The notes below the pieces were generated by a model that saw only the letters and a list, made by a program, of their open reading frames with translations, was not told the origin of the DNA and searched no databases. Made by a program: the position numbers and the translations under genes. This document shows positions 7,243-24,814 of a DNA stretch of 64,000 nt, one piece after another. This DNA comes from Xylophilus sp. Leaf220. Its GTDB lineage: Bacteria > Pseudomonadota > Gammaproteobacteria > Burkholderiales > Burkholderiaceae_C. Every line of letters starts with the position of its first letter. Position 1 is the stretch's first letter. The stretch covers positions 248,339-312,338 of the forward strand of contig NZ_LMKO01000022.1 in assembly GCF_001421705.1 (NCBI RefSeq). The letters are read 5' to 3'.

Positions 7243-8250
7243 CTACAGCGACCGGCCGACGCCGTCCTGCCAGCGCCAGGCATCGGCGCACATCCGCTCC
7301 AGGCCGTGCTGCGCCTTCCAGCCCAGCAGTTGCTCCGCCCGCGCCGGATCCGCCCAGCAGGCGGCGACGTCGCCCGGCCGGCGGGCGACGATGCGGTAGG
7401 GCACCGGCCGGCCGCTGGCCTGCTCGAAACCGCGCACCATCTCCAGCACCGACACCGCGCGGCCGGTGCCCAGGTTCACCGTCAGCAGGCCGGGGTGCTC
7501 GCGCAGGTAGCGCAGCGCGGCCACGTGGCCGTCGGCCAGGTCGCAGACATGGAGGTAGTCGCGCACGCCGGTGCCGTCGGGCGTCGGGTAGTCGTCGCCG
7601 TAGACGCTCAGGCTTTCCCGCATGCCGACGGCCACCTGCGCCACGTAGGGCATCAGGTTGTTGGGAATGTCCTGCGGGTCTTCGCCGATCAGGCCGCTCT
7701 CGTGCGCGCCGACCGGGTTGAAGTAGCGCAGCCGCGCGATCCGCCACTGACCGGGCTCGGCCGCGTCGACGTCGGCCAGCACCTGCTCCATCATCAGCTT
7801 GCTCCAGCCGTAGGGGTTGGTGGCCGAGAGCGGGAAGTCTTCCCGGATCGGCAGCGAGGCCGGGTCGCCGTACACCGTGGCCGACGACGAGAACACCAGG
7901 GTGCGCACACCGGCCTTCTGCATCGCGCGCAGCAGCGTCACCGTGCCGGCCACGTTGTTGTCGTAATAGCGCAACGGCTCGCGCACCGATTCACCGACCG
8001 ACTTGAGCGCGGCGAAATGCACCACCGCCTCGATAGGATGCTCGGCGAACAGGCGGGCCAGCAGGGCCTCGTCGCGCACGTCGCCCTCCACATGCTGCGG
8101 CACCGCGCCGGTGATCTTCTCCACCCGCTCCAGCACCGACGCACGGCTGTTGCAGAAGTTGTCGAGGATCAGGAAGGGGATGTTCGCGGCCGCCAGGGCC
8201 ACGCAGGTGTGTGAGCCGATGAAGCCGGCGCCGCCGGTGACGAGAATCAT
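7243..8250 (-). CDS. galE: UDP-glucose/UDP-N-acetylhexosamine 4-epimerase (GalE family)
   Basis: 335-residue short-chain dehydrogenase fold epimerase. It has the N-terminal NAD-binding GGAGFIGSHT motif (about residues 6-15), the SSSATVYG segment and the catalytic YGWSK (Y-x3-K). It interconverts UDP-Glc/UDP-Gal; some members also act on UDP-GlcNAc/UDP-GalNAc. The residue that aligns with E. coli GalE Tyr299 is Cys298 here (in GDVAACWADP). Human GALE likewise has Cys at this site and accepts N-acetylated sugars. The gene is divergent from pelA across a 317-bp gap, which suggests it supplies UDP-GalNAc for Pel, like PelX of some pseudomonads. The ATG at 8250 is preferred; a longer reading to 8337 adds a non-family N-terminus. 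Confidence 0.93.
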   Translation of the reverse strand: MILVTGGAGFIGSHTCVALAAANIPFLILDNFCNSRASVLERVEKITGAVPQHVEGDVRDEALLARLFAEHPIEAVVHFAALKSVGESVREPLRYYDNNVAGTVTLLRAMQKAGVRTLVFSSSATVYGDPASLPIREDFPLSATNPYGWSKLMMEQVLADVDAAEPGQWRIARLRYFNPVGAHESGLIGEDPQDIPNNLMPYVAQVAVGMRESLSVYGDDYPTPDGTGVRDYLHVCDLADGHVAALRYLREHPGLLTVNLGTGRAVSVLEMVRGFEQASGRPVPYRIVARRPGDVAACWADPARAEQLLGWKAQHGLERMCADAWRWQDGVGRSL

Positions 8251-8567: not shown

Positions 8568-11387
8568 GTGTTGCACAAACTCCTCTCCCTATTCCTCTGC
8601 CTGTGCTGCGCTTTCCCGCTGTGGACGACCGCAGCGCCGGCGGTGGCCCTGCACTACGGGCCGATCGCCGGCCTGCCGGAACTGAAGCTCTTCGACATCG
8701 TGGTGGTCGAGCCCGACCACGGCCAGGACCCGGTCGCCTACCGCAAGACCGGCAGCGAGCTCTACGCCTACGTGTCGGTGGCCGAGGTGCAGGCGTCGCG
8801 GCCCTACTACCCCGAGATTCCCGTAGCCTGGAAGATGGCGCGCAACGGCGACTGGAACTCCGACGTGGTCGACCAGACGCCGGCCGAATGGCCCGAGTTC
8901 TTCGCCAACAAGGTGGTGGGACCGCTCTGGCAGAAGGGCTACCGCGGCTTCTTCCTCGATACTCTCGACTCCTACCGGCTGGCCAAGCAGTTCGACGAGG
9001 CGGCGCAGCAGGCCGGCATCGTCCGGGTGATCGAACTGCTGCACCAGCGCTACCCCGGTATCCAGCTGATCCTCAACCGGGGCTTCGAGATCGTGCCGCG
9101 GGTCAAGGACAAGGTGAAGATGGTGGCGGTCGAATCGCTCTTCCGCGGCTGGAACGCCGGCACCCAGCGCTACGAGCCGGTGAAGCCCGAAGACCGCGAG
9201 TGGCTTCTGGGCCAATTGCGCACCATCCGCGAGCGCGACGGCCTGCCGATCCTCGCGATCGACTACGTGGCGCCGCAAGACAGGGCACTGACCCGCTCGA
9301 CCGCCGAGCAGATCAAGGCGCTGGGCTTCATCCCCTGGGTGACAGACGGCCATGTGAAGACGGTCGGCATCGGCGCCGTCGAGCCGGTACCGCGGCGGGT
9401 GCTGGTGCTCTACAACGGCGGCGAGACGCCGGCGCTCAACTACACGCCGGCCCACCGCTTCCTGCAGATGCCGCTGAACCACCTGGGCTACGTGGTCGAC
9501 TACGTGGACGTGCGCGAGGCGCTGCCCGCCGAGGTGTACCAGGACCGCTATGCCGGCGTCGTGACCTGGTTCTCGGGCTTCCTGCCGGAGAACCGCATCA
9601 AGCCGGTGCAGCAGTGGCTGCAGGCGCGCCTGGCCGAGCAGATGCCGGTGGCGGTGCTGGGCAATTTCGGCTCGGCACTCGACCGGCCGCTGGTCGAGGC
9701 GCTGGGCATCCAGCCCAACAGCGCCGCGCCCCGCGGTAGCCAGCAGCCGGTCGCCCGCGACCCGATGATGGGCTTCGAGACGGCGCTGGAGCCCGCCACC
9801 CGCGCGCAGTTCGAACTGGTGCTGCGCAACGGCGCGCCGGTGCAGGCGGCGCGCCCGCTGGTCGAATTCAAGGACCAGCGCAACCAGTCGGTGCTGGGCG
9901 GCGCGGTGATGCCCTGGGGCGGCTTCCTGCTGGATCCTTTCGTGGTGGTCGAGGTGCCGGGCACCGACTACGCCCGCTGGGTGGTCGACCCGTTCGCCTT
10001 CCTGGCGCAGACGCTGCGCCTGCCGGCGGTGCCGGTGCCCGACGTCACCACAGAGAACGGCCGCCGGCTGCTGTTCTCGCATGTCGACGGCGACGGATTT
10101 CCGTCGCGCGCCGAACTGCCCGGCAGCCCCGACGCGGGGCAGGTGCTGCTCAAGGAGATCTTCGAGAAGTACCGCACCGTGCCGCAGACCATGTCGGTGA
10201 TCGAAGCCGAGATCGCGCCGCACGGACTGCACCCCGAGATGAGCCAGGAGCTGGAAGGCGTGGCGCGCCGCATGTTCGCGCTGCCGCACGTCGAGATCGC
10301 CAGCCACACCTATTCGCATCCGTTCCTGTGGGACCGCAACGTCCGCCACGGCACCTTCAGCGACAACTCCGAGGCGGCGATGAGCCTGGAGGTGCCGGGC
10401 TACACGATGGACCTGACACGCGAGATCGTGGGCTCTACCGACTACATCAACAGCCGCCTGGCGCCGCCGGGCAAGAAGGTCCGGATCCTGCTGTGGTCGG
10501 GCGACACCGCGCCCAACGCCGAGGCGCTGGCGATCACCGCCAAGGCCGGTCTGCTCAACATGAACGGCGGCGACACCTCGATCACCCGCACCAACCCTTC
10601 GCTCACCGCCATCGGTCCGCACGGCATCCAGAAGGGCGGCCTTCTGCAGGTCTACGCCCCGATCACCAACGAGAACATCTACACCAACCTGTGGAAGGGG
10701 CCGTACTACGGCTACGAGCAGGTGCTGCAGAGCTTCGAGATGACCGGCACGCCCCGCCGCATCAAGCCGGTCGACATCTACTACCACGTGTACTCCGCCA
10801 GCAAGCGGGCCGGCCTGAACGCGCTGCGCAAGGTGTACGACTGGGCCCAGGCGCAGCCGCTGCATCCGGTGTTCGCATCGGAATTCATCCGCAAGGTGCA
10901 GGACTTCCACACCTACGCCGTGGCCCGCGACGGCGACGGCTGGCGGGTGCGCGGCGACGGGGAACTGCGCACCCTGCGCATGCCGGCCGCGCTCGGCACG
11001 CCCCTGCCCCAGGCCAGCCAGGGCGTGGCCGGCTACACCGCCGCGGCCGAGGGCGGCACCTATGTGCACCTGACCGGCGGTGCCGCATGGCTGCAGATGC
11101 GCGCCGGCGACGCCGCCGCGCCGGCCGCACCGCAGGGCCCGTACCTGTCCGACGCCAACGCCCGATTGGCCGAATGGACGGTGCGCGACCAGGGCCGTAC
11201 CGATTTCGCCCTGAAGGGCTACGCACCGCTGGCTTTCGGCCTGGCCAATGCCGGCAATTGCCAGGTGCGCGCCAACCAGCGCCTGCTGACCCCCACCCGC
11301 GCGGCTTCCCCGGCCACCCCGGCCGTCCAACAATTCCGACTCTCCGATGCTGCAGCGCAAATCCAGCTCCAGTGCCCAGCCCGCTGA
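8568..11387 (+). CDS. pelA: PelA: periplasmic Pel glycoside hydrolase/deacetylase
   Basis: 939-residue exported protein. Signal peptide at residues 1-23 (start GTG 8568; TTG 8571 also possible). An N-terminal TIM-barrel glycoside hydrolase domain follows (about 24-265), related to endo-alpha-1,4-N-acetylgalactosaminidases, with a probable catalytic Glu189 in VAVESLFRGW. Then comes a Rossmann-like central region and a polysaccharide deacetylase domain with metal-site residues D507/D509 (HVDGDGF) and H580/H584 (SHTYSHPF). PelA partially deacetylates Pel during export, making it cationic, and can cleave it. First gene of a pelABCDEFG operon; its 3' end overlaps pelB by 41 nt. Size and domain order match PelA of Pseudomonas. 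Confidence 0.96.
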   Translation: MLHKLLSLFLCLCCAFPLWTTAAPAVALHYGPIAGLPELKLFDIVVVEPDHGQDPVAYRKTGSELYAYVSVAEVQASRPYYPEIPVAWKMARNGDWNSDVVDQTPAEWPEFFANKVVGPLWQKGYRGFFLDTLDSYRLAKQFDEAAQQAGIVRVIELLHQRYPGIQLILNRGFEIVPRVKDKVKMVAVESLFRGWNAGTQRYEPVKPEDREWLLGQLRTIRERDGLPILAIDYVAPQDRALTRSTAEQIKALGFIPWVTDGHVKTVGIGAVEPVPRRVLVLYNGGETPALNYTPAHRFLQMPLNHLGYVVDYVDVREALPAEVYQDRYAGVVTWFSGFLPENRIKPVQQWLQARLAEQMPVAVLGNFGSALDRPLVEALGIQPNSAAPRGSQQPVARDPMMGFETALEPATRAQFELVLRNGAPVQAARPLVEFKDQRNQSVLGGAVMPWGGFLLDPFVVVEVPGTDYARWVVDPFAFLAQTLRLPAVPVPDVTTENGRRLLFSHVDGDGFPSRAELPGSPDAGQVLLKEIFEKYRTVPQTMSVIEAEIAPHGLHPEMSQELEGVARRMFALPHVEIASHTYSHPFLWDRNVRHGTFSDNSEAAMSLEVPGYTMDLTREIVGSTDYINSRLAPPGKKVRILLWSGDTAPNAEALAITAKAGLLNMNGGDTSITRTNPSLTAIGPHGIQKGGLLQVYAPITNENIYTNLWKGPYYGYEQVLQSFEMTGTPRRIKPVDIYYHVYSASKRAGLNALRKVYDWAQAQPLHPVFASEFIRKVQDFHTYAVARDGDGWRVRGDGELRTLRMPAALGTPLPQASQGVAGYTAAAEGGTYVHLTGGAAWLQMRAGDAAAPAAPQGPYLSDANARLAEWTVRDQGRTDFALKGYAPLAFGLANAGNCQVRANQRLLTPTRAASPATPAVQQFRLSDAAAQIQLQCPAR

Positions 11388-14300
11388 GCGGCCGGTCCTG
11401 GCGCCCCCGTGGCTCATCGCCCTGCTGGCCAGCATGGTGGGGGGAGGCCTGTGGCTGCTCTACCCGAAGCAGGACCTGGAGCGGCGGCTCTCCGATACGC
11501 CCGACGTGGCCCTGTCGGTCGCCTACCTCAACAACCTGCTGCGCAGCGACCCGGACAATCCCCGCCTGCGCCTGCTCCTGGCCCAGCGGCAGATCACGAT
11601 GGGCGACATGGCCAACGCGCGCGCGACGCTGCAGCCGGCGCTCGATTCGCCCGATCCCGAACTGCACCGCGACGCGCTCTGGAGCCTCTGGGACCTGACC
11701 TATGCCGACTACCAGCGCACGCCCGAAAAAGAAGCCGAGCGCCGCAAGGGCCTGCGCGAAGACCTCAGGCGCCAGTTGAAGGCGCTGACGCAGGAGCGCT
11801 GGCCGATCGAACGCCAGATACTGCTGGCGCGCCGTGCGGCCGACCTCGAAGACCGTGTAGTCGGCGTCGTGCTGACCCGGCAGCTGGCCGCGGAAGCGAC
11901 CGACCCGCGCGAAGCCGCGCGCCTCTACGAGCGGGCCGCCAAGGAGGCGCTCGGTACCTCCGACTACGCCGCCTGCGCCGAGCTGTACCTGCTGGCGCGC
12001 CAGGCCACGCCCGACCCGCAGCAGGCCAAGGTCTACTACACCGCCGCGGTGAAGGCCCTGCAATCGGGCAACCAGCCGGTCGCCGCCCTGGCACTGGCAG
12101 AGCGCGAGCTGGGCCCGCTGTCGGACGATGTGCAGACCCTGCTGATGATCACCAACCTGGCGCGTGCTGCGGGCAAGCCGGCCGTGGCCGACCGCTACGT
12201 GCGCCGCCTGCTGCGCATCTCCGTGCTGCAGCAGATGCCCGATACGGCGGCGATCCTGGTCGGCAGCATGGCACCGGTCGGCGCGCTCCTGCGCCCGCTG
12301 CATGGTGCCGCGTTGGATGCGCCGCCCGCGCAGTACGGCTACGACGACGGCGCCCACCTGATGCTGCCGCCCGCGATGGCGGTGGCCGACGCCGGCACGT
12401 GGCAGCAGCGCCGCATGGCGCAGGAAGCGCCCCGCCCTGCGGCTGCCCCCGCACCCGCGGCGGCGGCACCGCTGCCCGCGCCGCGCCCCGGTGCGGTGCC
12501 CAACCTGCCGTTCGACGACAAGATCTACACGCTCGGCTACGAGGTCTTCGTCGAGAACCGCAAGCTCGACGACGCCTGGTCGCTGGCGAACGTCGCGGTG
12601 CAGAACCTGCCGCAGGACCTGGTGTGGCGCGAGCGCCTGGCCCGGGTGTCCGACTGGACGCTGCGATCCTCGTCGGCGCTGGAAAACTGGCTCTACATCG
12701 CCCGCAAGACCGACCGCGACGAGGCCTGGCAGTCGGTGCTGCGGCTGGCGCCCGGCCAGTTCGACGACCGTGCCCTGGTCGAGGGCCTGCGCCACCAGCT
12801 GCGCGGCCGCCCCGAGGATTTCGCGCTGATGCGCGCCCTGGTCGACGCCTACGAACGCATCGGCGAGCCGCAGCCCGCACTCGACTACCTGAAGGTCCAC
12901 GCCCGGACGGCGCCGGCGGTGGAACTGCTCGCCAACCTGGCCGAACGTGCCGGACAGCCGACCCTGGCGCTCGACAGCTGGCGCCGCCTGCTGTCCGACA
13001 AGGCCCAGGTGACCCAGGCCCGCGCCATGCGCGCCGCCGTCCTGGCCCTGACGCACGGCCGGCCCGACGAAGGCCTGCGCTGGCTCGAGACCGCCCAGCA
13101 GCAGCCGAGCGCGGGCACCGACCAGAACGACTACTGGCGCCTGACCGCCCAGCTGGCCGAAAGCCGCCAGCGCAACGATCTGGCGGTGCAGGCCTACCGC
13201 CGGCTGGTGGAAGGCAAGGACACCGACAGCTCCGACTACGACGCGCTGGTGCGCCTGCTCAACAACGACCAGCCGCTCGAAGCGGCGCGGGTGTCGGTGC
13301 TGGCCTGGGAACGCTTCGACGAGCCGCGCTACCTGGTCGATGCACTCTCCATCTACTCCAGCCGCAACCGCTGGGACGACGTCGGGCTGCTGCTCAAGCG
13401 CCTGGATGCGACCCCGCAGGCCACCCGCCGCGCCGCGTCCCGCTTCCGGCAGATGCCCGAGTTCCTCCGGCTGGCTGGGAGCTACTACCAGAACACCGGC
13501 AACCTGCCCGAGGCCCGCCGCTACTTCGAGGCCGGCCTGCAGCAGAGCCCCGATTCGTCGGAGATGCGCCAGGCGCTGCTGTGGCTGTTCATCGACAGCA
13601 ACGACGCGGTGTCGCTGCGCACCCTGCTGGCCACGCAGGAACGCGTCTGGGCCCGCGACGAGGATGTGCACGACGCGCTGGCGGCCGCCTACCAGGCGCT
13701 GTCGCTGCCACAGGTCTCGCTCGACCGCTACCTCACGCCGCACCTGAAGGCGCACCAGGGCGACTTCCTCTGGCTGATGAACTACGCCGACGCGCTCGAC
13801 CAGAACCAGCAGACCGACCGTGCCTGGCGGCTGCGTCGCGAGCTGCTGTCGCGCGAATGGCAGACGGCGCGCAAGGGCGACGGCGGCCAGCGGCTTTCGG
13901 CCGAAGAGGCACGCGCCCGCTGGCTGACCGACGAGGGCCTGGACCAGACGCGGCGGATCGCCCGCACCCGTCTGTTCATCACCCAGCGGCCGGGCGACCC
14001 GGCGCAGGAAGTGCTGCGCGAACTGCTGCGGGTCGACCGCGACGGGCGCGGCGGCTACTCCAACGCCGCGGCCGAGACCGCCATCGGCTGGCTGCAGGAC
14101 GCGGGCGAATACACCGCCGAGCGCGGCTTCCTGCGCCACCAGTACGCGCGCAGCCAGGGCCAGCGGAGCAACCGGCCGCTGTGGGCGGAGATCACCGTCG
14201 CGCTAGCCGAGGACGACAAGTCCGCCACCGGCCAGCTGCTGCAGGCGTTCGACGAGCGCCTGCCCCGCTACGACCGGGTCAACGCCGCCCGCGCGGTGGA

Positions 14301-15336
14301 CGACATCCGGCTGGCGCAGACTGCCGCCTTCGAGGCGCAGCAGGACCAGCACGACGACCAGCCGCTGCACCTGCAACTCACCGAGAACCTGCTGGCCTTC
14401 AGCGATACGGTGGGCGGCGGCCTGAAGCTGCAGCGCCTGGGCGGTATGGACGAGGACGAGGTCGACACGGTGCTGCACATCGCGATCGACCCGCGGCTGT
14501 CGCTGGACCTGGAGTTCGCGAGCATCCGCCGCAGGGCCACCGATGCGCTGGTGATCGTCAACCCGCCCGACGAGCGGGCCTTCGACATGAAGCTCAACTG
14601 GCGCCACAACGACGGCACGACGATGCTGCGCGCCGGCCGCCGCGAAAGCCTGGGTTCCTACAACCCGCTGCAGATCGAGCACCAGCAGCGGATCGACAAC
14701 CGCCTGATGCTGACGCTGGACCTGGGCACCGATCTGCCCAGCCAGGAAAGCCTGGCCCTGCGCATCGCCGGCAAGAAGCGCCGGGCCGGCGCCGCCCTGC
14801 GCTACCAGGCCACCCGCCAGGACCAGTTCACCCTGGGCTATTCGGACGAGGCCTACAGCCTGCAGACCGGCGCGGCGCTAGGCAACGGCCAGCACACCCG
14901 GCTCAACTACAGCCACACCTACCGGCAGGAGGCGCCGGTGGTCGAGTTCGGCGCATTCTGGTCGCGCCACAATTTCTCGCGCCGCGACCTGGCGGGCCTG
15001 GGCCCGAACGACCTGGCCTTCACCCGCATCGTGCCGCCGAGCGCGGGCACCGTGGGCCAGGACTATTTCCTGCCCGACAGCTTCAGCTTCTACGGGCTGC
15101 AGGTCTCCACCAACATGCGCTACGAGCAGGAGTACACCCGTGCCGCCCTGCCCTTCGCCACCCTGAGCCGCACCTGGCACAGCGTCCTCGGCCCCGGCTA
15201 CGAGCTGCGCATGGGCGTGGCCGGCAGCGTGCTGGGCGCCGACCACCTGGGCCTGAGCTGGGGCGTCGGCAAGTCGGGCCTGCAGGTCCGGGGCCTGACC
15301 CGCAGCATGCTGCTCACCTACCGTCTCCATTTCTGA
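11347..15336 (+). CDS. pelB: PelB: TPR scaffold and outer-membrane Pel export pore
   Basis: 1329-residue protein. A single N-terminal membrane anchor (about residues 19-40, PPWLIALLASMVGGGLWLLY) is followed by a long array of tetratricopeptide repeats through about residue 1000. An Ala/Pro-rich low-complexity linker interrupts it near residues 350-385. The C-terminal third is rich in alternating aromatic/polar strands ending in TYRLHF, typical of an outer-membrane beta-barrel. In Pseudomonas the TPR region binds PelA and modulates its activity while the barrel exports Pel. It starts inside pelA and its stop overlaps (TGATG) an alternative pelC start. Confidence 0.95.
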   Translation: MLQRKSSSSAQPAERPVLAPPWLIALLASMVGGGLWLLYPKQDLERRLSDTPDVALSVAYLNNLLRSDPDNPRLRLLLAQRQITMGDMANARATLQPALDSPDPELHRDALWSLWDLTYADYQRTPEKEAERRKGLREDLRRQLKALTQERWPIERQILLARRAADLEDRVVGVVLTRQLAAEATDPREAARLYERAAKEALGTSDYAACAELYLLARQATPDPQQAKVYYTAAVKALQSGNQPVAALALAERELGPLSDDVQTLLMITNLARAAGKPAVADRYVRRLLRISVLQQMPDTAAILVGSMAPVGALLRPLHGAALDAPPAQYGYDDGAHLMLPPAMAVADAGTWQQRRMAQEAPRPAAAPAPAAAAPLPAPRPGAVPNLPFDDKIYTLGYEVFVENRKLDDAWSLANVAVQNLPQDLVWRERLARVSDWTLRSSSALENWLYIARKTDRDEAWQSVLRLAPGQFDDRALVEGLRHQLRGRPEDFALMRALVDAYERIGEPQPALDYLKVHARTAPAVELLANLAERAGQPTLALDSWRRLLSDKAQVTQARAMRAAVLALTHGRPDEGLRWLETAQQQPSAGTDQNDYWRLTAQLAESRQRNDLAVQAYRRLVEGKDTDSSDYDALVRLLNNDQPLEAARVSVLAWERFDEPRYLVDALSIYSSRNRWDDVGLLLKRLDATPQATRRAASRFRQMPEFLRLAGSYYQNTGNLPEARRYFEAGLQQSPDSSEMRQALLWLFIDSNDAVSLRTLLATQERVWARDEDVHDALAAAYQALSLPQVSLDRYLTPHLKAHQGDFLWLMNYADALDQNQQTDRAWRLRRELLSREWQTARKGDGGQRLSAEEARARWLTDEGLDQTRRIARTRLFITQRPGDPAQEVLRELLRVDRDGRGGYSNAAAETAIGWLQDAGEYTAERGFLRHQYARSQGQRSNRPLWAEITVALAEDDKSATGQLLQAFDERLPRYDRVNAARAVDDIRLAQTAAFEAQQDQHDDQPLHLQLTENLLAFSDTVGGGLKLQRLGGMDEDEVDTVLHIAIDPRLSLDLEFASIRRRATDALVIVNPPDERAFDMKLNWRHNDGTTMLRAGRRESLGSYNPLQIEHQQRIDNRLMLTLDLGTDLPSQESLALRIAGKKRRAGAALRYQATRQDQFTLGYSDEAYSLQTGAALGNGQHTRLNYSHTYRQEAPVVEFGAFWSRHNFSRRDLAGLGPNDLAFTRIVPPSAGTVGQDYFLPDSFSFYGLQVSTNMRYEQEYTRAALPFATLSRTWHSVLGPGYELRMGVAGSVLGADHLGLSWGVGKSGLQVRGLTRSMLLTYRLHF

Positions 15337-15359: not shown

Positions 15360-15911
15360 ATGCCCCACCACCGCTTTCTGCTGCAGCGCCGGCACGCCCT
15401 CGTCGCCGGCAGCCTCGCCCTGCTGCTCGGCGCCTGCTCCACCATCGACCGCGGCCAGCCGCCCGAGCTGGAGCGCAACGCCACCTGGGTGGTGCTGCCC
15501 TTCGCCAACCACACCGAGACGCCGCTCGCCGGCAACCGGGCCGAGGCGATCGCGCAGGCCCTGCTGCAGACCCGCGGCGTCGGCCGCATCCAGCGCTATC
15601 CGACCAGCACCCAGCAGGAAGCGCTGTTCGACGCGGGCGACGCCAGGCGCCAGCAGGAAGTGCTGGCCTGGGCCCGCGAGCAGAAGGCCAGGTACGCCCT
15701 GACGGGCGCGGTGGACGAATGGCGCTACAAGGTCGGCGTCGACGGCGAACCCGCTGCCGGCGTGACGCTGCAGATCCTCGACGTGGCCTCGGGCGACACG
15801 CTCTGGAGCGGCACCGGCGGCAAGAGCGGCTGGAGCCGCGAATCGCTCTCGGGCGTGGCGCAGAAGCTGATCCGCGATCTGCTCGACGCCGGCCTGGCGC
15901 GGGCGCGCTGA
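15360..15911 (+). CDS. pelC: PelC: outer-membrane lipoprotein of the Pel exporter
   Basis: 183-residue lipoprotein whose signal peptide ends at Cys26 (lipobox LLGAC). PelC forms a 12-subunit ring at the periplasmic face of the outer membrane that guides the positively charged polymer to PelB. The compact alpha/beta fold is suggested by NATWVVLPFANHTETP and the later ALTGAVDEWRYKVG. ATG 15360 is preferred over ATG 15336 because a purine-rich ribosome binding site (GAGAGGA) sits 8 nt upstream. pelD follows after 7 nt. Confidence 0.94.
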   Translation: MPHHRFLLQRRHALVAGSLALLLGACSTIDRGQPPELERNATWVVLPFANHTETPLAGNRAEAIAQALLQTRGVGRIQRYPTSTQQEALFDAGDARRQQEVLAWAREQKARYALTGAVDEWRYKVGVDGEPAAGVTLQILDVASGDTLWSGTGGKSGWSRESLSGVAQKLIRDLLDAGLARAR

Positions 15912-15918: not shown

Positions 15919-17313
15919 ATGGCCTCCGAGACGACCACGCCCGCCGCGCGCCGCCGCACGGTCAAGCCGACGCCGATCGCGGCCAAGTCGAAGAAAGTCA
16001 CCCACCTGCCGTCCAACCTGCTGGGCAAGCTGGCCGATCCCGACGCCCGCGCGCCGGTCATGCTGGTCGAGACCCTGCTGCTGCCGCTGGTCGCGCTGGC
16101 GCTCGGCCTGTGGCTGGAGCCGCAGGACCCGATGTGGGTGCAGGCGCCCTTCCCGTGGTCGTGGCTGGCGCCGGTCATCGTCGCGCTGCGCTACGGGCCG
16201 CTGGCGGGGCTGGGCGCCGCCTGCGTGCTGGCGATCGGATGGCTGGGGCTGAACCCGGGGCGCTACGACGGATTTCCGCAGGTCTACTTTCTCGGAGGCC
16301 TGATTCTGGTGATGCTGGTCGGCGAGTTCTCGAGCCTGTGGCAGGCGCGCACCCGGCGGGCGGAGAACGTCCAGGTCTATCTCGACCAGCGGCTGGAGCA
16401 TCTGGTGCGGCAGTACTACCTGCTGCGGCTGTCGCACGACCGTCTGGAGCAGGAGCTGATCGGCCGGCCGATGTCGATGCGCGACGCGCTCTCCACCCTG
16501 CAAAGCGTGGGCAGTCCCGACCAGAACGTGGCACAGGGCGCCGAGACGCTGCTGCGGCTGCTGGCCCAGTACTGCCAGCTCGAGTCGGCCACGCTCTACG
16601 CGGCCGACGACGAGCACATCGACGCGGAGCCGATCGCGCGTCTGGGCAACGGCGCGGCGATCGACCCGTACGATCCCCTGGTGCAGCAGGCCATCGAGAC
16701 GCGCAAGCTCTGCCACGTCAGCCAGGTGCTGGCCGGACAGCAGCAGACCCAGTACCTGGCGGCGGCGCCGCTGCTCGACCTGGGCGGCGAGATCTACGGC
16801 CTGCTGGTGATCGACGACATGCCCTTCTTCTCGCTGCAGGACGAGAACCTGCAGACGATCAACCTGCTGCTGGGCTACTACACCGACGGCCTGGCGATGA
16901 AGGCGCTGGCCGAGCCGATCCAGGCACGGCTGCCCGAGTGCCCGGCGACCTTCGCCTTCGAATCGCAGCGGCTGGCGCACATCCGCGATACCGCGCAGGT
17001 GCCGAGCGTGATCGTGGCGCTCGAATTCCTGCCGCGGGCGATCGACGCCGGCCTGCCCGGCCAGATCCAGCGCCTGAAGCGCGAACTGGACGAGGGCTGG
17101 CTGATCCAGGGCGAGCACCGGCACGTGCTGGCCATGCTGATGCCGCTCGGCGACAGCGCCACCGCCGAGGGCTACATCAACCGGCTGGAGTTGTGGTCGG
17201 ACCAGAAGACCGGCCAGCCGCTGGCCGAATCGGGCGTGTTCCCGCACATCGTGCCGCTCGACGGCGAGCCGCTGTCGGTGCTGCAGCGGATCCACGGAAT
17301 GGCCCATGCTTAA
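15919..17313 (+). CDS. pelD: PelD: c-di-GMP-binding inner-membrane regulator of Pel synthesis
   Basis: 464-residue protein. A basic N-terminus leads to about four membrane helices (residues 48-140) and a short coiled-coil. A GAF domain (about 180-320) and a degenerate GGDEF domain (about 330-455) complete it. PelD binds c-di-GMP through an inhibitory-site-like RxxD; the best candidate is R388-E-L-D391 in LKRELDEGW. No intact GGDEF catalytic motif is visible, as expected for a receptor and not a cyclase. Pel production is therefore probably controlled post-translationally by c-di-GMP. The last 8 nt overlap pelE. Confidence 0.94.
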   Translation: MASETTTPAARRRTVKPTPIAAKSKKVTHLPSNLLGKLADPDARAPVMLVETLLLPLVALALGLWLEPQDPMWVQAPFPWSWLAPVIVALRYGPLAGLGAACVLAIGWLGLNPGRYDGFPQVYFLGGLILVMLVGEFSSLWQARTRRAENVQVYLDQRLEHLVRQYYLLRLSHDRLEQELIGRPMSMRDALSTLQSVGSPDQNVAQGAETLLRLLAQYCQLESATLYAADDEHIDAEPIARLGNGAAIDPYDPLVQQAIETRKLCHVSQVLAGQQQTQYLAAAPLLDLGGEIYGLLVIDDMPFFSLQDENLQTINLLLGYYTDGLAMKALAEPIQARLPECPATFAFESQRLAHIRDTAQVPSVIVALEFLPRAIDAGLPGQIQRLKRELDEGWLIQGEHRHVLAMLMPLGDSATAEGYINRLELWSDQKTGQPLAESGVFPHIVPLDGEPLSVLQRIHGMAHA

Positions 17314-18322
17314 CCTCAAGTTCGGCATCTCGGCGCTGCTGCTGGAGATCGGTGCCTGGAGCGGGCCGGCCCTGCTGCAGGGCCGCTCCGACGCCGCCCT
17401 GCTCAGCTACCTGACGGTGCACGGATTGGCCTGCGTCATGCTGTCGCTGTTCCTGCTGCCCCTGCTCTCGGGTGCCCAGGCCAAGCCGCGCACGCCGGTA
17501 CTGGCGCTGATGGCGGCCTTCAGCTACACCGTGCCGGTCGCCGGCTTCGTCGGGGTGGCGCTGGCCGTTATCGTGCTGCGGGTCTACCGCAGCCCGGCCG
17601 CGCAGGACGCCTTCGAATCCCTGCGCCTGCCCGAGTTCGACCGCCACCAGCGCCTCCAGGGCAGTTTCCGGCAATCCGGTCTGCGCTCGTTCCTGGGCAA
17701 CAGCCAGGCGCCGATGCAGACCCGCATGCGGGCGATGGTGGCACTGCAGCGTGTCTCCGGCCGCATCGCGTCGCCGCTGCTGCGCACCGTGCTGAGCGAC
17801 CCGAGCGAAGACCTGCGGCTGCTGGCCTACGGCATGCTCGACACGCTGGAAAAGCGCATCAACCGCACGATCGACAGCGAACTCGACGCGCTGCGCCAGG
17901 CCCGGGAAGCCGAAGGCGACACGCCCGGGCCGCTCACCACCGAATCCAACTACCGGCTCTCGGACCTGTACTGGGAGCTGGTCTACCAGGAACTGGTGCA
18001 GGGCGACCTGCGCGACCACGCGATCAAGGAATCGCTGCGCTACTGCGAACAGGTGCTGGAGCACCGGCCCGAGCATCCGCATCTCAACCTGCGCCGCGGC
18101 CGGCTTCTGCATCTGCTGGGACAGACCCAGGCCGCCGAGGCCGCCTACGGGCTGGCGCGGGCTCTGGGCCTGCCGGCCACGCGGGTGCTGCCGTACCAGG
18201 CCGAGCTGTGCTTCCAGCGGCGCGACTTCGAGCAGACGCGGCAGCTGGTGCACGAGCTGGCCCAGTGGCGCGCCCTGCCCCGTCTGCGGCCGATCCTCGA
18301 CTACTGGGAGCCGCCGCGATGA
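17306..18322 (+). CDS. pelE: PelE: inner-membrane TPR subunit of the Pel synthase
   Basis: 338-residue protein with two N-terminal membrane segments (about residues 33-55 and 66-92) followed by a soluble alpha-helical, TPR-like region (about 110-338; ...EHRPEHPHLNLRRGRLLHLLG...). PelE joins PelD, PelF and PelG in the inner-membrane synthase complex. It overlaps pelD at the start and pelF at the end (ATGA), indicating coupled translation. Identification rests on position and topology; the family is poorly conserved. Confidence 0.92.
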   Translation: MLNLKFGISALLLEIGAWSGPALLQGRSDAALLSYLTVHGLACVMLSLFLLPLLSGAQAKPRTPVLALMAAFSYTVPVAGFVGVALAVIVLRVYRSPAAQDAFESLRLPEFDRHQRLQGSFRQSGLRSFLGNSQAPMQTRMRAMVALQRVSGRIASPLLRTVLSDPSEDLRLLAYGMLDTLEKRINRTIDSELDALRQAREAEGDTPGPLTTESNYRLSDLYWELVYQELVQGDLRDHAIKESLRYCEQVLEHRPEHPHLNLRRGRLLHLLGQTQAAEAAYGLARALGLPATRVLPYQAELCFQRRDFEQTRQLVHELAQWRALPRLRPILDYWEPPR

Positions 18323-19851
18323 GCCATCCCAAGGCCGGCCAGGCCGACATCGCGCTGCTGCTGGAAGGCACCTTCCCGTACGTGAGCGGCGGCGTCTCGA
18401 GCTGGATCAACCAGATCATCCGGGCCTATCCCGAATACACCTTCGCGATCATCTTCCTCGGCAGCCGCCAGGAGGACTATTCGAACTTCAAATACGAACT
18501 GCCCGCGAACGTGGTGCATTTCGAGGAGCACTATCTCTACGACCATCTGGGCGCCCGCGGCATGCCGGCCCGGCGCACGGGCAACCGGGCCGCGCTCGAC
18601 ATGGTGCGCACCCTGGTCGAGTCTTTTCGCACCGGCGACCGCAGCGCCGAGACGATGGCCGCCTTCCGCGAGCTGACGCTGCAGATGCAGCCGGGCGGCA
18701 CGCTGCCGCTGGAGGATTTCCTCTACAGCGAGCGGGCCTGGGAGATCATCTGCCAGGGCTACCGCGACCACTGCACCGACCCGTCCTTCGTCGACTATTT
18801 CTGGACGGTGCGGATCATGTACCAGCCGCTCTGGACGCTGGCCCGGGTGGCGCAGCAGATGCTGCCGGTGCGGATGGTGCACTGCGCCTCGACCGGCTAC
18901 GCCGGCTACCTGGGCGGCCTGGTGCAGCACATGCGGGGCGTGCCGCTGATCCTGTCGGAGCACGGCATCTACACCAAGGAACGCAAGATCGACCTGTTCA
19001 AGAGCGAGTGGATCCGCGACAACCGCAACATCTTCCAGCGCGACCCGACCGAGCTGTCGTACTTCCGCCAGATGTGGATCCGCTTCTTCGAATGGCTCGG
19101 CTACTACTGCTACGCCGCGGCCGATCCGATCATCGCGCTCTACGAGACCAACCGCCTGCGCCAGGTCACCGACGGCGCCGAAGCGGCCCGCACCTTCAAC
19201 ATTCCCAACGGCATCAACCTGGCGCGCTTCGCACGGCTGCGCGACCAGCGGCCGGTCGAGGTGCCGCAGGTGCTCTGCCTGATCGGCCGCGTGGTGCCGA
19301 TCAAGGACATCAAGACCTTCATCCGCGCGATGCGCCGGGTGGTCAACCAGCTGCCGCTGGCCGAAGGCTGGATCGCAGGGCCTACCGAGGAAGACCCCGC
19401 CTATGCGCAGGAGTGCACGAACCTCGTGCGCAGCCTGGGACTGGAGAACAACATCCGCTTCCTGGGCTTCCAGCGGGTGGAGGACCTGATGCCGCGGATC
19501 GGCCTGGTGATCCTCTCGTCGATCAGCGAGGCGTTGCCGCTGGTGATCCTGGAGGGCTACGCCGCCGGCGTGCCCACCGTGTCGACCGACGTCGGGTCGT
19601 GCCGCCAGCTGATCGAAGGACTGGACGAGGAAGACCGCGCGCTGGGCGCCTCCGGCAAGGTGGTGCCTATCGCCGATCCGCAGCGGCTCGCCGACGCGTC
19701 GATCGCGCTGCTCAAGGATTCGGATGCCTGGCACGCCGCCAGCCGCGCGGCGATCGCGCGGGTGGAGCGCTACTACACCGACACGATGATGTTCGACCGC
19801 TACCGCCGGGTCTACGAGACGGCGTTCCAGAAAACAGAGGGAGCGCGCTGA
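18319..19851 (+). CDS. pelF: PelF: GT4-family glycosyltransferase (Pel polymerase)
   Basis: 510-residue soluble glycosyltransferase of family GT4 with a GT-B fold. It has the PelF-specific N-terminal motif EGTFPYVSGGVSSWINQII, a central HGIYTKERKIDL segment, the nucleotide-sugar part LIGRVVPIKDIKTFIRAM, and the C-terminal E-x7-E type motif EALPLVILEGYAAG. PelF uses UDP-activated N-acetylhexosamine to build the chain. Its length matches known PelF proteins (about 507). Start ATG 18319 overlaps the pelE stop. Confidence 0.96.
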   Translation: MSHPKAGQADIALLLEGTFPYVSGGVSSWINQIIRAYPEYTFAIIFLGSRQEDYSNFKYELPANVVHFEEHYLYDHLGARGMPARRTGNRAALDMVRTLVESFRTGDRSAETMAAFRELTLQMQPGGTLPLEDFLYSERAWEIICQGYRDHCTDPSFVDYFWTVRIMYQPLWTLARVAQQMLPVRMVHCASTGYAGYLGGLVQHMRGVPLILSEHGIYTKERKIDLFKSEWIRDNRNIFQRDPTELSYFRQMWIRFFEWLGYYCYAAADPIIALYETNRLRQVTDGAEAARTFNIPNGINLARFARLRDQRPVEVPQVLCLIGRVVPIKDIKTFIRAMRRVVNQLPLAEGWIAGPTEEDPAYAQECTNLVRSLGLENNIRFLGFQRVEDLMPRIGLVILSSISEALPLVILEGYAAGVPTVSTDVGSCRQLIEGLDEEDRALGASGKVVPIADPQRLADASIALLKDSDAWHAASRAAIARVERYYTDTMMFDRYRRVYETAFQKTEGAR

Positions 19852-21224
19852 TGGCCGGCATTGGATTCGAGCTGCGGCGCATGCTGCGCAAGGACACGCT
19901 GACCAGCCTGGTGCAGGCCTATGCCTATGCCGGCGTGATCGGCTCGGGGCCGTGGGTGTTCTCGATCGTCGGCATCCTGCTGATCGGTATCTTCAGCGCC
20001 AGCGTGGTGGTGCCGGCCTCACTGGTCACCCAGTTCCAGACGTCGGTCACCTACCTGGTGGCGGGCAGCCTGATCCTCACCGGGCTGGTGCAGCTGGCCT
20101 TCACCCGGTTCGTGTCGGACCGGCTATTCGAGAAACGCCGCGACCTGATCCTTCCGAACCTGCACGGCCTGCTGCTGGTGGTGACCGTCGCCTCGGGCGT
20201 GCTGGGCACCCTGGCCCTCTTCGTGGTGCTGCCCAACCTGGGCCTGGTCTACCGGATGCTGATGCTGGCCGGCTTCGCGCTCATGTGCAACGTCTGGGTG
20301 CTGACGGTGCTGCTGTCCGGCATGAAACGCTACAAGGTCATCGTGGCGCTGTTCGGCCTGGCTTACGCGGTCATCGTCGTCGCCTCGCTGCTGCTGCGGC
20401 CCTGGGGGCTGGAGGGACTACTGGCGGGTTTCGTGCTGGGCAACTACCTGCTGCTGGCGGGCATGTGGGTGCTGGTGGTGCAGGAGTTCAACCCCAAGGG
20501 CAAGCTGATCGCGTTCGACTTCGCGCGGCGCAGGATGCTCTATCCGTCGCTGGTGGCGGTGGGGTTCCTCTACAACTTCGGCATCTGGGCCGACAAGTTC
20601 ATGTTCTGGTACTTCACCCCCACGTCCCAGAGCATCATCGGCGGGCTGCGCGCCTCGATCATCTACGACCTGCCGGTGTTCCTGGCCTACCTGTCGATCA
20701 TCCCGGGCATGGCGGTATTCCTGGTCCGGATCGAGACCGACTTCGTCGAGTTCTACGACAAGTTCTACGACGCGGTGCGCAGCGGCGGCTCGCTGGAATA
20801 CATCGAGGCGATGCGCGACGAGATGGTCTATTCGATCCAGCAGGGCCTGGGCGAGATCGGCAAGATCCAGACGCTGGCGGTGCTGGTCACCTTCGTCGCC
20901 GGACCGGCCCTGCTCGACGTGCTGGGCATCTCGCGGCTCTACCTGCCGCTGCTGCATGTGCAGGTGATCGGCGCCGGCCTGCAGGTGGGGCTGATGGCGA
21001 TCCTGAACGTGTTCTTCTACCTCGACCAGCGGCGCATCGTGCTTTTCCTGTGCCTTCAGTTCGTGCTGCTCAACATCGTCTTCACCGGCTTCACGCTGCA
21101 TGCCGGCGCTGCGCTCTACGGCTACGGATTCGCGCTGTCGACCCTGCTCACCCTGTGCACTGGCATGTACCTGCTGTCGCGCCAGCTCAACCGGCTGGAG
21201 TACGAGACCTTCATGCTCCAGTAG
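19851..21224 (+). CDS. pelG: PelG: polytopic inner-membrane Pel transporter
   Basis: 457-residue integral membrane protein with about 12 hydrophobic segments, related to the MOP/Wzx flippase superfamily. The N-terminal MAGIGFELRRMLRKDTLTSL is characteristic of PelG. It is thought to move the growing Pel polymer across the inner membrane. The start overlaps the pelF stop by one base (TGATG). The stop codon is followed by a small hairpin (GGCCC/GGGCC, 21224-21238), and the first GH135-like gene begins 58 nt downstream. Confidence 0.95.
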   Translation: MAGIGFELRRMLRKDTLTSLVQAYAYAGVIGSGPWVFSIVGILLIGIFSASVVVPASLVTQFQTSVTYLVAGSLILTGLVQLAFTRFVSDRLFEKRRDLILPNLHGLLLVVTVASGVLGTLALFVVLPNLGLVYRMLMLAGFALMCNVWVLTVLLSGMKRYKVIVALFGLAYAVIVVASLLLRPWGLEGLLAGFVLGNYLLLAGMWVLVVQEFNPKGKLIAFDFARRRMLYPSLVAVGFLYNFGIWADKFMFWYFTPTSQSIIGGLRASIIYDLPVFLAYLSIIPGMAVFLVRIETDFVEFYDKFYDAVRSGGSLEYIEAMRDEMVYSIQQGLGEIGKIQTLAVLVTFVAGPALLDVLGISRLYLPLLHVQVIGAGLQVGLMAILNVFFYLDQRRIVLFLCLQFVLLNIVFTGFTLHAGAALYGYGFALSTLLTLCTGMYLLSRQLNRLEYETFMLQ

Positions 21225-21282: not shown

Positions 21283-22467
21283 ATGAAACCACCTTCCCTG
21301 CGTGCACTTCCCCGGTGGCTGAACCTGGCCCTGGCCGCGCTGGTGGCGGCGTGCGGCGGTGGAGGTGGTGGCGGCAGCGGCGGCGCGCCCGTCGCCGTGC
21401 CGGTCGTCACCGTCACCATCGGCGCGCCGGGCGACCAGGCGATCTTCGAGATGGGCGGCCCGGTCAGCGTGAACGCCCGGGTGACGGTCGACGGCGCGGT
21501 GCCGGCCGACGGCACCGCGGTGCGTTTCGCGGCGTCGTCCGGCACCTTCGCGCCGGCCAGCCCCACCACCCAGGCAGGCGTGGCGACCGCGTCGTTCAGC
21601 GCCACGGCGCCGGGGCGCCAGGAGATCACCGCGTCGGTCCAGATCGGCGGCCAGACGGCCAACGCGGTGCGGGTGGTGTACCTGCGGCCCGCGCCGGCGC
21701 CGCTGGAGCTGCTGGTGCCGGCCTACTTCTCGCCGACCACTACCAGCCACTGGAACACGCTGGTCGCCGGCGCCGCGTCCCATCCAGGCGTTGCGGTCAC
21801 CGCCATCATGAACCCCGACAACGGCATCTTCACCAACGCCAGCGCCGACTACCTGCGCGTGCTGACGCAGCTGTCCGCGGCCGGCGGCCGGACGGTCGGC
21901 TACGTCTACACCGGCTACGGCACCGGGTCCCGGTCGATGGCGTCGATCAAGGCCAACATCGACAGCTACCTGGCGCTGTACGGCCGCGCGCTGATCGGCG
22001 GCTTCTTCCTCGACGAGATGGCGTCCGCCGCCAACCGGCTGGATTTCTACCGCGAGATCTACGGCTACATCAAGGCCAGGGACGCAGGCCTGCGGGTGAT
22101 CGGCAACCCCGGCACCTTTCCCGACCCGGGCTACGCGGCGGTCGCCGACATCCTGGTGAATTTCGAAAACAGCGCCGCCGCCTTCGCCGACTACGACCCG
22201 CGCAACGGGCAGGCCTGGCTCTACCAGTACCCCAACAGCCGTGCGGGCGCTCTGGTCTACGGCACGCCTACCTGCGCAGCGATGCAGACCGCCGTACGGG
22301 CCGCCGCCACCGCGCGCTTCAACGCCGGGCCGCTCTACATCACCGACTTGCCGTACAACCCGGTGACCGGAGCCGGCAACCCCTGGGCTGCCTTGCCAAG
22401 CTATTGGTTGCAGATGCTCGACACGGTCGCAGCGGTCAACCGCGGCAGCACGCTGCCTGCCTGCTGA
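21283..22467 (+). CDS. Lipoprotein with Ig-like and spherulin-4/GH135-type domains (copy 1)
   Basis: 394-residue lipoprotein: signal peptide to Cys24 (VAAC), a Gly-rich spacer, one bacterial Ig-like (Big_1) domain (about 40-140), then a spherulin-4 type TIM-barrel domain (about 145-390). The second domain has the family's VTAIMNPDNGIF, YVYTGYGTGS and GGFFLDEM motifs. The Asp-Glu pair (D244/E245) and a later Glu295 (VNFEN) match the three conserved acidic residues of fungal Sph3 (GH135), which hydrolyses N-acetylgalactosamine-rich galactosaminogalactan. Directly behind pelG, it is a candidate Pel hydrolase or Pel-binding surface protein. The function is inferred; no close characterised homologue is known to me. 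Confidence 0.85.
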   Translation: MKPPSLRALPRWLNLALAALVAACGGGGGGGSGGAPVAVPVVTVTIGAPGDQAIFEMGGPVSVNARVTVDGAVPADGTAVRFAASSGTFAPASPTTQAGVATASFSATAPGRQEITASVQIGGQTANAVRVVYLRPAPAPLELLVPAYFSPTTTSHWNTLVAGAASHPGVAVTAIMNPDNGIFTNASADYLRVLTQLSAAGGRTVGYVYTGYGTGSRSMASIKANIDSYLALYGRALIGGFFLDEMASAANRLDFYREIYGYIKARDAGLRVIGNPGTFPDPGYAAVADILVNFENSAAAFADYDPRNGQAWLYQYPNSRAGALVYGTPTCAAMQTAVRAAATARFNAGPLYITDLPYNPVTGAGNPWAALPSYWLQMLDTVAAVNRGSTLPAC

Positions 22468-22659
22468 TCTGGGCTGTTCGGCCGCCCAGCGGCGGCACGG
22501 CACCGCCGATGCGCTGTTGCCCGGATGTCCGCAAGACACTGCGGTATATTTAAAGCACGGGTAAAACCAACCGTCGGACAGGCCCGACCGACGGCCATCG
22601 CTGCGGTTAGCAACTGTCGCCCAGGTGACTATCATCCGATTTTTTGCGGATCGCCCACC

Positions 22660-23895
22660 ATGCAGCTTTTCGGACCGCTCTCCCGTTTCAGTCTTCTGGC
22701 CGCGGCGGCGGCGCTCGTGGCGGGCTGCGGCGGAGGCGGAGACAGCACCACCACCGCGGCGACCTCCAGCGTTACCGCCGCGGGGGAAGCCGACATCATC
22801 GTCGGCACCCAGGCGGCCAAGGCCAAGCTCCCGGTGCTGTCGCTGGCTTTCACCACCCCGGACGATCAGGAGGTGCTGACCGTCGGTACCGCGGCCACCG
22901 TCGCGGCACGGCTGAAGATCGACGGCGTGGCAGCGGTAGACGGCACCGCGGTGCGCTTGGGCGCGCCGTCGGCCCACTGGCTGCCGGTCCTTCCCACGAC
23001 CGTGGCCGGCTTGACCACCACCGCCTTCACCGCCACCGCACCCGGCCGCCAGGAGATCACCGCCACCGTGCAGGCCGGCGGCCAGACAGCCAGTGCGGTG
23101 CGGGCTGTGTATGCCCGGCCGGCCCCCGCACCGCTCGAGATCCTGGTTCCCGCCTACTTCTCGCCCGCCGACTCGACCGACTGGGCGAAGATGACCGCCG
23201 GCGCCGCCGCCCATCCGACGCTGGCCGTCACCGCGATCATGAATCCGAACAATGGCATCTTCACCGCGGCCGATCCGGACTACCTGCGGGCGCTGGCGCA
23301 GTTCGCCGCGGTGGGCGGCCGCACGGTGGGCTATGTCTACACCGGCTACGGCACCGGATCGCGCTCGCTGGCCTCGATCAAGGCCAACATCGACCGGTAC
23401 CTGGCGGTCTACGGCCGCCCCTTGATCGGCGGCTTCTTTCTCGACGAGATGGCCTCCGATCCGAAGAGGCTGGCCTTCTACCAGGAGATCTACCGCCACA
23501 TCAAGGCCCGCGACCCGGGCCTGCGGGTGATCGGCAACCCCGGCACCGTGCCGGATGCGGTGTATGCGGGCGTGGCCGACACCCTGGTCACCTTCGAAGA
23601 CCGCGGTACGGCCTACACCCGCTACGACCCGCGCCAGGGCAATGCCTGGCTGTACCTGCAGGCCAACAGCCACCAGGCGGCGCTGGTCCACAACGCGAGC
23701 TGCGCGGCGATGCAGCGCGCCGTCGCCGCGGCCGCCACGGCACGGTTCAACGCCGGGCCGGTGTACATGACCAACCTCAAGTTCAACCCCGAGACCGGCG
23801 TGGGCGATCCCTGGAAGGCCCTGCCCGGCTACTGGATGCAGATGCTGGACACCGTCTCGGCCGTCAACCGGGGCGTGCCACCGACGGCCTGCTGA
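22660..23895 (+). CDS. Lipoprotein with Ig-like and spherulin-4/GH135-type domains (copy 2)
   Basis: 411-residue paralogue of the preceding lipoprotein, roughly 70% identical by eye over the catalytic-type domain. Lipobox Cys23 (VAGC) is followed by a Ser/Thr/Ala-rich linker longer than in copy 1. An Ig-like domain (about 60-155) and the spherulin-4 type domain with D262/E263 (FFLDEM) and E313 (VTFED) complete it. Both copies keep the putative catalytic acids, so both may be active. A 192-bp gap with AT-rich patches separates the copies, so copy 2 may have its own promoter. It converges on hisA with a hairpin between them. Tandem duplication is the simplest origin. Confidence 0.85.
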   Translation: MQLFGPLSRFSLLAAAAALVAGCGGGGDSTTTAATSSVTAAGEADIIVGTQAAKAKLPVLSLAFTTPDDQEVLTVGTAATVAARLKIDGVAAVDGTAVRLGAPSAHWLPVLPTTVAGLTTTAFTATAPGRQEITATVQAGGQTASAVRAVYARPAPAPLEILVPAYFSPADSTDWAKMTAGAAAHPTLAVTAIMNPNNGIFTAADPDYLRALAQFAAVGGRTVGYVYTGYGTGSRSLASIKANIDRYLAVYGRPLIGGFFLDEMASDPKRLAFYQEIYRHIKARDPGLRVIGNPGTVPDAVYAGVADTLVTFEDRGTAYTRYDPRQGNAWLYLQANSHQAALVHNASCAAMQRAVAAAATARFNAGPVYMTNLKFNPETGVGDPWKALPGYWMQMLDTVSAVNRGVPPTAC

Positions 23896-23913
23896 GGCCG
23901 CCGCGCGTCCGGT

Positions 23914-23953: not shown

Positions 23954-24691
23954 TCAGGCCAGTTCGTCGGCGCGGGCCTGCGCCGCAGCGAAGTCGAGGT
24001 CGCCCGAGTAGATGGCGCGGCCGCAGATGACGCCTTCGACGCCTTCGGCCTCCACCGCGCAGAGGCCCTCGATGTCCGCCATGTTCGACAGGCCGCCCGA
24101 CGCGATCACCGGGATCGTCAGCGCCTGGGCCAGCTTGACCGTCGCGTCGATGTTGATGCCCGAGAGCATGCCGTCGCGGCCGATGTCGGTGTAGATGATC
24201 GACTCGACGCCCCAGTCCTCGAACTTCTTGGCCAGGTCGACGACCTCGTGGCCGGTGAGCTTGCTCCAGCCGTCGGTGGCGACCTTGCCGTCCTTCGCGT
24301 CCAGTCCCACGATGATGTGGCCGCCGAAAGCGCTGCAGGCGTCCTTCAGGAAGCCCGGGTTCTTGACCGCCGCGGTGCCGATGATCACGTAGCGCAGGCC
24401 GCCGTCGATGTACTTCTCGATCGTGTCCAGGTCGCGGATGCCGCCGCCCAGCTGCACCGGGATGTCATCGCCCACGGCCTTCAGGATCGACTTGATCGCC
24501 GCGTAGTTCTGCGGCTTGCCGGCGAAGGCGCCGTTCAGGTCCACCAGGTGCAGGCGCCGTGCGCCCTGCTCCACCCACTTCAGCGCCATCGCGGCCGGGT
24601 CTTCCCCGAAGGTGGTCGATTGGTCCATGTCGCCCTGTTTCAGGCGGACGCAGTGACCGTCTTTCAGGTCGATCGCAGGAATGAGGATCAT
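23954..24691 (-). CDS. hisA: ProFAR isomerase HisA
   Basis: 245-residue (beta/alpha)8 barrel that opens the ribose ring of ProFAR to PRFAR in histidine synthesis. Motifs: [17 protein letters not shown] with catalytic Asp8, [11 protein letters not shown], and the second catalytic Asp in [13 protein letters not shown]. It follows hisH by 123 nt. In relatives hisF comes right after hisA; here the following genes on this strand are absent and the Pel/GH135 block begins instead. Confidence 0.97.
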
Positions 24692-24814
24692 GGTGCCGTG
24701 GTCAGCTGGAAGACTCGAAGGGATGGAAATGCAGGTCGATGTGCGAAGCCGCCGCCGCGGCCGGATTCTCGTGCGCAATCCGAGTGCGGACGCAGTGGCC
24801 CTCGCGGCAAGCGT

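Follow-up and report, generated by a model that had tools for sequence, protein, structure and literature searches.

Two tandem lipoprotein genes, here termed GH135a and GH135b, lie directly behind a complete pel operon in Xylophilus sp. Leaf220, and we think it likely that their products are Sph3-like enzymes, namely catalytically competent, retaining endo-alpha-1,4-N-acetylgalactosaminidases, which are anchored in the membrane and attack the Pel polysaccharide that the cell itself makes. Bacterial GH135 sequences are numerous; the characterised member of the family named in a recent account is the fungal Sph3 (PMC12054363). Here, position, common loss and catalytic decay connect GH135 with a defined biosynthetic locus, which makes a role in Pel metabolism directly testable.

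The pel locus and its surroundings

The window (the whole stretch of DNA analysed, 64,000 nucleotides of a 4.48 Mb genome whose nearest named relative in the comparison is Xylophilus ampelinus) holds pelABCDEFG complete, seven genes in canonical order, within a split his operon. The features are as follows, in order of position.

hisF, 5457..6218, minus strand: left-hand side of the inserted unit
Mutarotase-like aldose epimerase gene, 6299-7159, minus strand: between hisF and galE
galE, 7246..8247, minus strand: UDP-glucose/UDP-GlcNAc 4-epimerase, divergent from pelA (TIGR01179, 437 bits)
pelA, 8568..11387, plus strand: GH166 hydrolase and deacetylase, full length (Glyco_hydro_114, 68.8 bits; solved PelA 9cgy, E 2e-190, residues 25-901)
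pelB, 11347..15336, plus strand: TPR and outer-membrane barrel (PF24604, 311 bits)
pelC, 15360..15911, plus strand: lipoprotein, reading frame open from 15336; assigned by its place between pelB and pelD, its lipobox and a same-position homologue in the compared pel operons
pelD, 15919..17313, plus strand: GAF and degenerate GGDEF domains, c-di-GMP receptor (PF16963, 102 bits)
pelE, 17306..18322, plus strand: TPR membrane protein, assigned by position, weak TPR matches and conserved order
pelF, 18313..19851, plus strand: glycosyltransferase, the Pel synthase (DUF3492, 340 bits, and glycosyltransferase group 1)
pelG, 19851..21224, plus strand: membrane exporter (PF16933, 527 bits)
GH135a, 21283..22467, plus strand: 394 aa lipoprotein, weak Ig-like domain, Spherulin4/GH135 barrel at about residues 143-382, with D244/E245/E295
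Inter-copy spacer, 22468..22659, plus strand: 192 bp, with weak promoter-like (22607-22635) and terminator-like (22529-22544) matches
GH135b, 22660..23895, plus strand: 411 aa, second lipoprotein copy, Spherulin4/GH135 barrel, with D262/E263/E313
hisA, 23954..24700, minus strand: right-hand boundary of the unit, followed by hisH, hisB, hisC, hisD and hisG

The alignment of PelA to 9cgy spans the whole length of the protein, the hydrolase and the deacetylase regions included. The galE-pelABCDEFG-GH135 block stands between hisF and hisA (5457-24700), which is a conserved insertion place in the clade of PelG proteins described below, and galE, which the first-pass annotation of this DNA did not mention, adjoins pelA in every genome of that clade but one (12 of 13), the exception being G093, which lacks it. 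A galE gene next to pel is also known from Gram-positives (PMC7112168).

The twin lipoproteins

The first-pass annotation had described two tandem lipoproteins directly behind pelG, and coordinates, strand, signal peptides and lipoboxes all bear this out. Both genes follow the complete operon (8568-21224) on the strand of pelG, with 58 bp between the pelG stop at 21224 and the GH135a ATG at 21283, a gap in which a terminator-like site was sought and none was found. Each protein starts with a signal peptide and a lipobox, LVAAC-GGG in GH135a and LVAGC-GGG in GH135b, and in each the lipobox Cys is followed by Gly, rather than Asp, at +2, as is typical of lipoproteins destined for the outer membrane. 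By their lipoboxes, the two are thus probably membrane-anchored. The earlier description of them as surface-anchored holds as to the anchor; as to the face of the membrane, the sequences carry no signal that tells outer from inner, and the outer face is their putative location. The claim of one Ig-like domain each fares less evenly: the N-terminal domain in the GH135b model (see below) is all-beta, a part of the model that the fold search barely covered, but Pfam Big_1 scores 23.7 bits in GH135a, under the cut-off of 34.9, and does not match GH135b.

As to the origin of the pair, the two barrels are 70% identical to each other, and in the GH135 tree the a copy of the window pairs with the a copy of X. 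ampelinus (100/98) and b with b (100/100), so the duplication is older than the split of the two species. Among the genomes compared, twin adjacent copies are found only in these two species, a single adjacent GH135 gene being the common state. Values of dN/dS between the window genome and X. ampelinus are 0.22 and 0.23 for GH135a and GH135b and 0.05-0.08 for pelF and pelG, indicating that both copies are under purifying selection, yet change faster than the neighbouring pel genes. The promoter-like and terminator-like matches in the spacer between the copies are to be regarded as weak because they do not recur in that form in X. ampelinus; they score modestly above shuffled sequence, and we do not claim a promoter of its own for GH135b.

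Family, fold and catalytic residues

Both proteins had been proposed to contain a spherulin-4-type barrel with an Asp-Glu pair and a later Glu, and a comparison with the family profile, which was free to contradict this, gave 159.1 bits for GH135a and 160.9 bits for GH135b against PF12138 (Spherulin4; cut-off 30.2 bits), from profile position 1 or 2 to 239 of 239. The search of NCBIfam gave no model matching either protein. Among solved structures, phmmer found Sph3 of Aspergillus clavatus (5c5g, 5d6t) with E of about 1e-14 for each copy (6.6e-15 for GH135a), and a 23-row profile found it with E 6e-39 and no other significant match. The bacterial motifs GGFFLDEM and V.FE fall onto GIFFDE and VVFE of Sph3, and in the alignment to 5c5g the trios D244/E245/E295 (GH135a) and D262/E263/E313 (GH135b) coincide with the Sph3 acidic residues, which we take to be D166/E167/E222 in Sph3 numbering. 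Across 37 homologues from the family and the order, D244 is identical in all 37, E245 in 33 and E295 in 34, the conserved or nearly conserved positions being V145, P146, Y148, W157, N177, G181, D244, N275-G277, E295 and T354.

The structural overlay that had been suggested as a check agrees. Prediction of GH135b from its single sequence gave a pLDDT of 39 and was replaced by an AF2 model of residues 56-411 built on a 16-row alignment (sequences from the window, from X. ampelinus L011 and from viral contigs), with a pLDDT of 85. The best match of this model in VIA-align is Sph3, at Z 27.3 (229 residues superposed with an rmsd of 2.3), against Z 15.6 for the second-best fold. The sequence alignments put the acidic residues in the right places. 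By profile, then, both proteins belong to GH135/PF12138, by the model of GH135b the barrel is of the Sph3 type, and from family, fold and residues they are probably endo-alpha-1,4-N-acetylgalactosaminidases. The net charges of their barrels (-1 and +2), compared with -1 for the GH166 domain of PelA, are uninformative.

Association with pel in relatives

The proposal that GH135 is associated with pel beyond this one genome is strongly and recurrently supported by the survey of neighbourhoods. In the family (251 genomes), GH135 is present in 29 genomes, PelG (above cut-off) in 33 and both in 20, with about 4 expected (Fisher p 1.9e-14), and in a sample of the order (300 genomes) the respective numbers are 9, 34 and 8 (p 1e-7), these counts being descriptive, as they ignore the relatedness of the genomes. 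In the phylum sample GH135 occurs in 8 of 398 genomes, too thin a presence for an association to be tested beyond the order.

Ten genomes of 5 genera (the window genome, G441, G483, G171, G300, G517, G506, G414, G435 and G304) have a GH135 gene immediately behind pelG in the same orientation; they represent one clade of operons and are not phylogenetically independent counts. In the PelG tree these ten and G434, G133 and G093 form a single group (support 90/87, with a core of 11 at 98/95), and of the 19 operons examined in the rest of that tree none has an adjacent GH135 gene. GH135 is present in all 13 genomes of the group, which come from 6 genera: adjacent in ten, displaced by rearrangement in two and relocated in one. 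In one of the two displaced cases (G133) the gene is about 17 kb away and still convergent with hisA, as if a GH135-his block had been inverted, and in the other (G434) a small contig carries it next to the mutarotase gene and hisA; the relocated gene (G093) is elsewhere in the genome. The GH135 tree gives a matching picture: all 12 of the pelG-adjacent copies belong to one clade of 19 (98/94), the rest of which consists of 4 copies from genomes with pel elsewhere and 3 from genomes without pel. The link between pel and GH135 is thus no local accident.

The association has exceptions on both sides, pel being found without GH135 in 13 of the 33 family genomes with pel, and GH135 without pel in 9 of the 29 with GH135. 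Replicons of Streptomyces, Caballeronia and Vitreoscilla also carry GH135 genes in settings without pel, so that GH135 as a whole cannot be called specific to Pel. Taken with the fact that fungal galactosaminogalactan (GAG) is the substrate of Sph3, these settings lend some colour to the idea that the lipoproteins attack a foreign polymer, be it fungal GAG or the Pel of a competitor, the site behind pelG serving merely for convenient co-expression. We give this idea little credence, as the evidence described below (presence and loss in common with pel, the deletion scar, catalytic decay once pel is gone) points to the cell's own polymer, and a lipid anchor would be unusual for a foraging enzyme.

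Several further families of the order also bear pel, and in these L108 and L109 (G121, G226) and L110 (G120) are unlinked, single-domain GH135 genes without a lipobox, whose neighbours differ and do not account for them; one pel-less genome (L027 of G330) has two neighbouring, divergent GH135 genes. Plasmid records yielded three distant GH135 genes, and the two whose surroundings were read are not beside pel genes.

Common loss and decay of the catalytic site

The his locus also records the absence of the unit. In two congeners, G524 and G320, pelG and GH135 are absent genome-wide; in the his locus of G524 the mutarotase-like gene alone separates hisA from hisF, and galE, pel and GH135 are missing, while the draft assembly of G320 breaks at the site. 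In G383 and G049, hisA and hisF are nearly contiguous. From the comparison of carriers with non-carriers, the unit therefore either occupies one particular place in the chromosome or is missing from it. One telling example is G518, which shares its genus with the carriers G304 and G435 and has neither pelF nor pelG. The order at its site is hisA, a 41-codon, in-frame C-terminus of a GH135 gene with its own stop, galE and hisF, and the remnant has 75-78% DNA identity to the genes of relatives, which means that pel and most of its GH135 gene were lost together. Strand, the short gap to pelG, conserved position, common absence and this deletion scar make the GH135 genes part of the pel genetic unit. 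As GH135 moves and disappears with the Pel genes, it probably trims the cell's own Pel.

Three pel-less genomes, G383, G480 and G518, retain a displaced GH135 lipoprotein elsewhere, with E245 replaced by Gly and E295 by Ala or Thr:

L105:8046-9326, L106:7478-8854 and L107:7540-8907: displaced GH135 pseudo-enzymes in pel-less genomes, both catalytic glutamates gone, lipobox and family match kept

In the same GH135 clade, all 16 of the members from pel-bearing genomes keep E245 and E295. A second, partial loss (E to Q) is seen in G490. The decay represents one or two events, and one loss lineage amounts to a natural contrast, not a statistic; it points to the catalytic site not being maintained when Pel is gone. 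The retention of lipobox and family match in these catalytically dead versions could also be read to mean that the lipoproteins bind Pel instead of cutting it, as a lectin-like clamp that would keep cell-bound Pel on the outer membrane with the aid of the N-terminal beta domain, and a lipid anchor with a spacer would fit such an anchoring role. This seems to us rather improbable, since the dead versions are found only where pel is gone, all copies in pel-bearing genomes keeping the catalytic trio.

Likely role in Pel metabolism

The substrate of GH135a and GH135b, the cleavage, the membrane face and the biological effect we infer from these observations together with the published chemistry. 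Pel is mainly an alpha-1,4 GalN-GalNAc repeat, and Sph3 and the hydrolase domain of PelA (PelAh) are both endo-alpha-1,4-N-acetylgalactosaminidases; PelAh tolerates GalN, while Sph3 needs an acetylated polymer, cleaving poly-GalNAc as well as Pel that has been re-N-acetylated, and leaving native Pel of P. aeruginosa uncut (PMC9135694). Sph3 does break up aggregates of Streptococcus intermedius Pel, which is GalNAc-rich (PMC12345266). In the scheme that we propose, GalE would supply the UDP-GalNAc precursor, PelF with PelD, PelE and PelG would build and export the alpha-1,4-GalNAc chain, and PelA would partly deacetylate it and cleave it with its GH166 domain. GH135a and GH135b, held at the outer membrane by lipid and spacer domain, would cleave the stretches that are still acetylated, assuming a preference of the Sph3 type, and so complement the GH166 domain of PelA. 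Such a division of labour, with PelA acting on partly deacetylated and GH135a and GH135b on acetylated stretches, is suggested by the published chemistry and the full-length PelA. The two enzymes may in this way control chain length, the balance between cell-bound and free Pel, or release from the biofilm. In Bacillus cereus and P. aeruginosa, biofilm rises when hydrolase activity is removed (PMC7112168, PMC12345266), a hint as to which way the effect would go.

The sparing of native P. aeruginosa Pel by Sph3 implies that GH135a and GH135b act on acetylated stretches, differ from Sph3 in specificity, or meet a GalNAc-rich Pel, and with the deacetylase domain kept in PelA, much of the host Pel may be a poor substrate for them. 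The role of Pel hydrolase assigned to them at the outset is accordingly worded here as putative; the reading is otherwise supported by the sequence evidence.

Relation to known systems

The closest relative of known function is Sph3 of Aspergillus (5c5g/5d6t), with which the two proteins share the fold, the D-E pair and later E, and a place in a locus for an alpha-1,4 galactosamine polymer. Unlike Sph3, to which they are about 24% identical, they come from a bacterium, are lipoproteins, have an additional beta domain at the N-terminus and are present in two copies, and their activity is predicted. This low identity and the wide spread of the family in bacteria leave a recent transfer from fungi unsupported.

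The layout of the fungal cluster, to which the locus had been likened, turns out to be closer than was realised. The GAG cluster of Neurospora comprises an epimerase, a synthase, a deacetylase, a GH135 and a GH114 enzyme (PMC11356417), and like this cluster (NCU05132-05137) and that of Aspergillus, the bacterial unit has galE, PelF, the PelA deacetylase with a GH114-like GH166 domain (named GH114 in Pfam, formally GH166) and GH135. A bacterial locus and a fungal exopolysaccharide cluster thus coincide in their enzyme types. The two differ in that synthase and export in the bacterium are Pel proteins, and in that PelA unites the deacetylase and the GH114-like domain in one protein; the two loci were presumably assembled separately.

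With this likeness in mind, the pel operons of the clade could make a different polymer, more acetylated or galactose-containing like fungal GAG, to which GH135 would be tuned. The presence of galE inside the unit, the equality of the parts list with that of the fungal cluster (PMC11356417) and the requirement of Sph3-type enzymes for an acetylated substrate (PMC9135694; compare the GalNAc-rich Pel of S. intermedius, PMC12345266) would all agree with such a polymer. We nevertheless regard it as unlikely, as the full-length match of PelA to 9cgy takes in the deacetylase region, so that deacetylation is to be expected, and galE beside pel in Gram-positives (PMC7112168) makes its presence here less telling. 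A related and wider conjecture, that a betaproteobacterial Pel clade converged on the full fungal GAG parts list and produces an acetyl-rich Pel resembling GAG, with GH166 required for its partly deacetylated and GH135 for its acetylated portions, is tentative, and we are doubtful of it ourselves. Our preferred reading is the Sph3-like trimming of the cell's own Pel.

Within the Pel systems, the locus resembles the canonical pelABCDEFG of P. aeruginosa in its seven genes in order and in a PelA with GH166 and deacetylase domains, and differs from it in the one or two GH135 lipoprotein genes behind pelG and the galE before pelA. Accessory hydrolases beside pel operons have precedents in PelAH of B. 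cereus (BCE_5582) and SIR_1591 of S. intermedius, both of which break up biofilms or aggregates of the Pel type (PMC7112168, PMC12345266); unlike GH135a and GH135b, these are Gram-positive, of the PelA-hydrolase type and of a DUF4832/TIM barrel type. The view that such a hydrolase-rich Pel system is unusual and without a described case must therefore be narrowed, accessory hydrolases of other families being known. For GH135 it stands: a literature search, weak in that subscription journals were mostly outside its scope, gave no paper in which a bacterial pel locus is connected with GH135 or spherulin. The endo-galactosaminidases of GH114, GH166 and GH191 share with GH135 a related barrel, the type of acidic pair and the class of substrate (PMC12054363), GH191 structures being farther from the GH135b model (Z 14.3-14.8) than Sph3.

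Bacterial homologues of Sph3 are possible biofilm-dispersing enzymes. Spherulin4 barrels are also encoded on viral contigs of IMG/VR (L078-L090), some of them within proteins that look structural or like tail fibres; one (L082:2761-4302) is flanked by collagen-like repeats, and another contig (L080) has two barrels in tandem. These viral proteins are possible candidates for phage depolymerases directed against GalNAc polymers.
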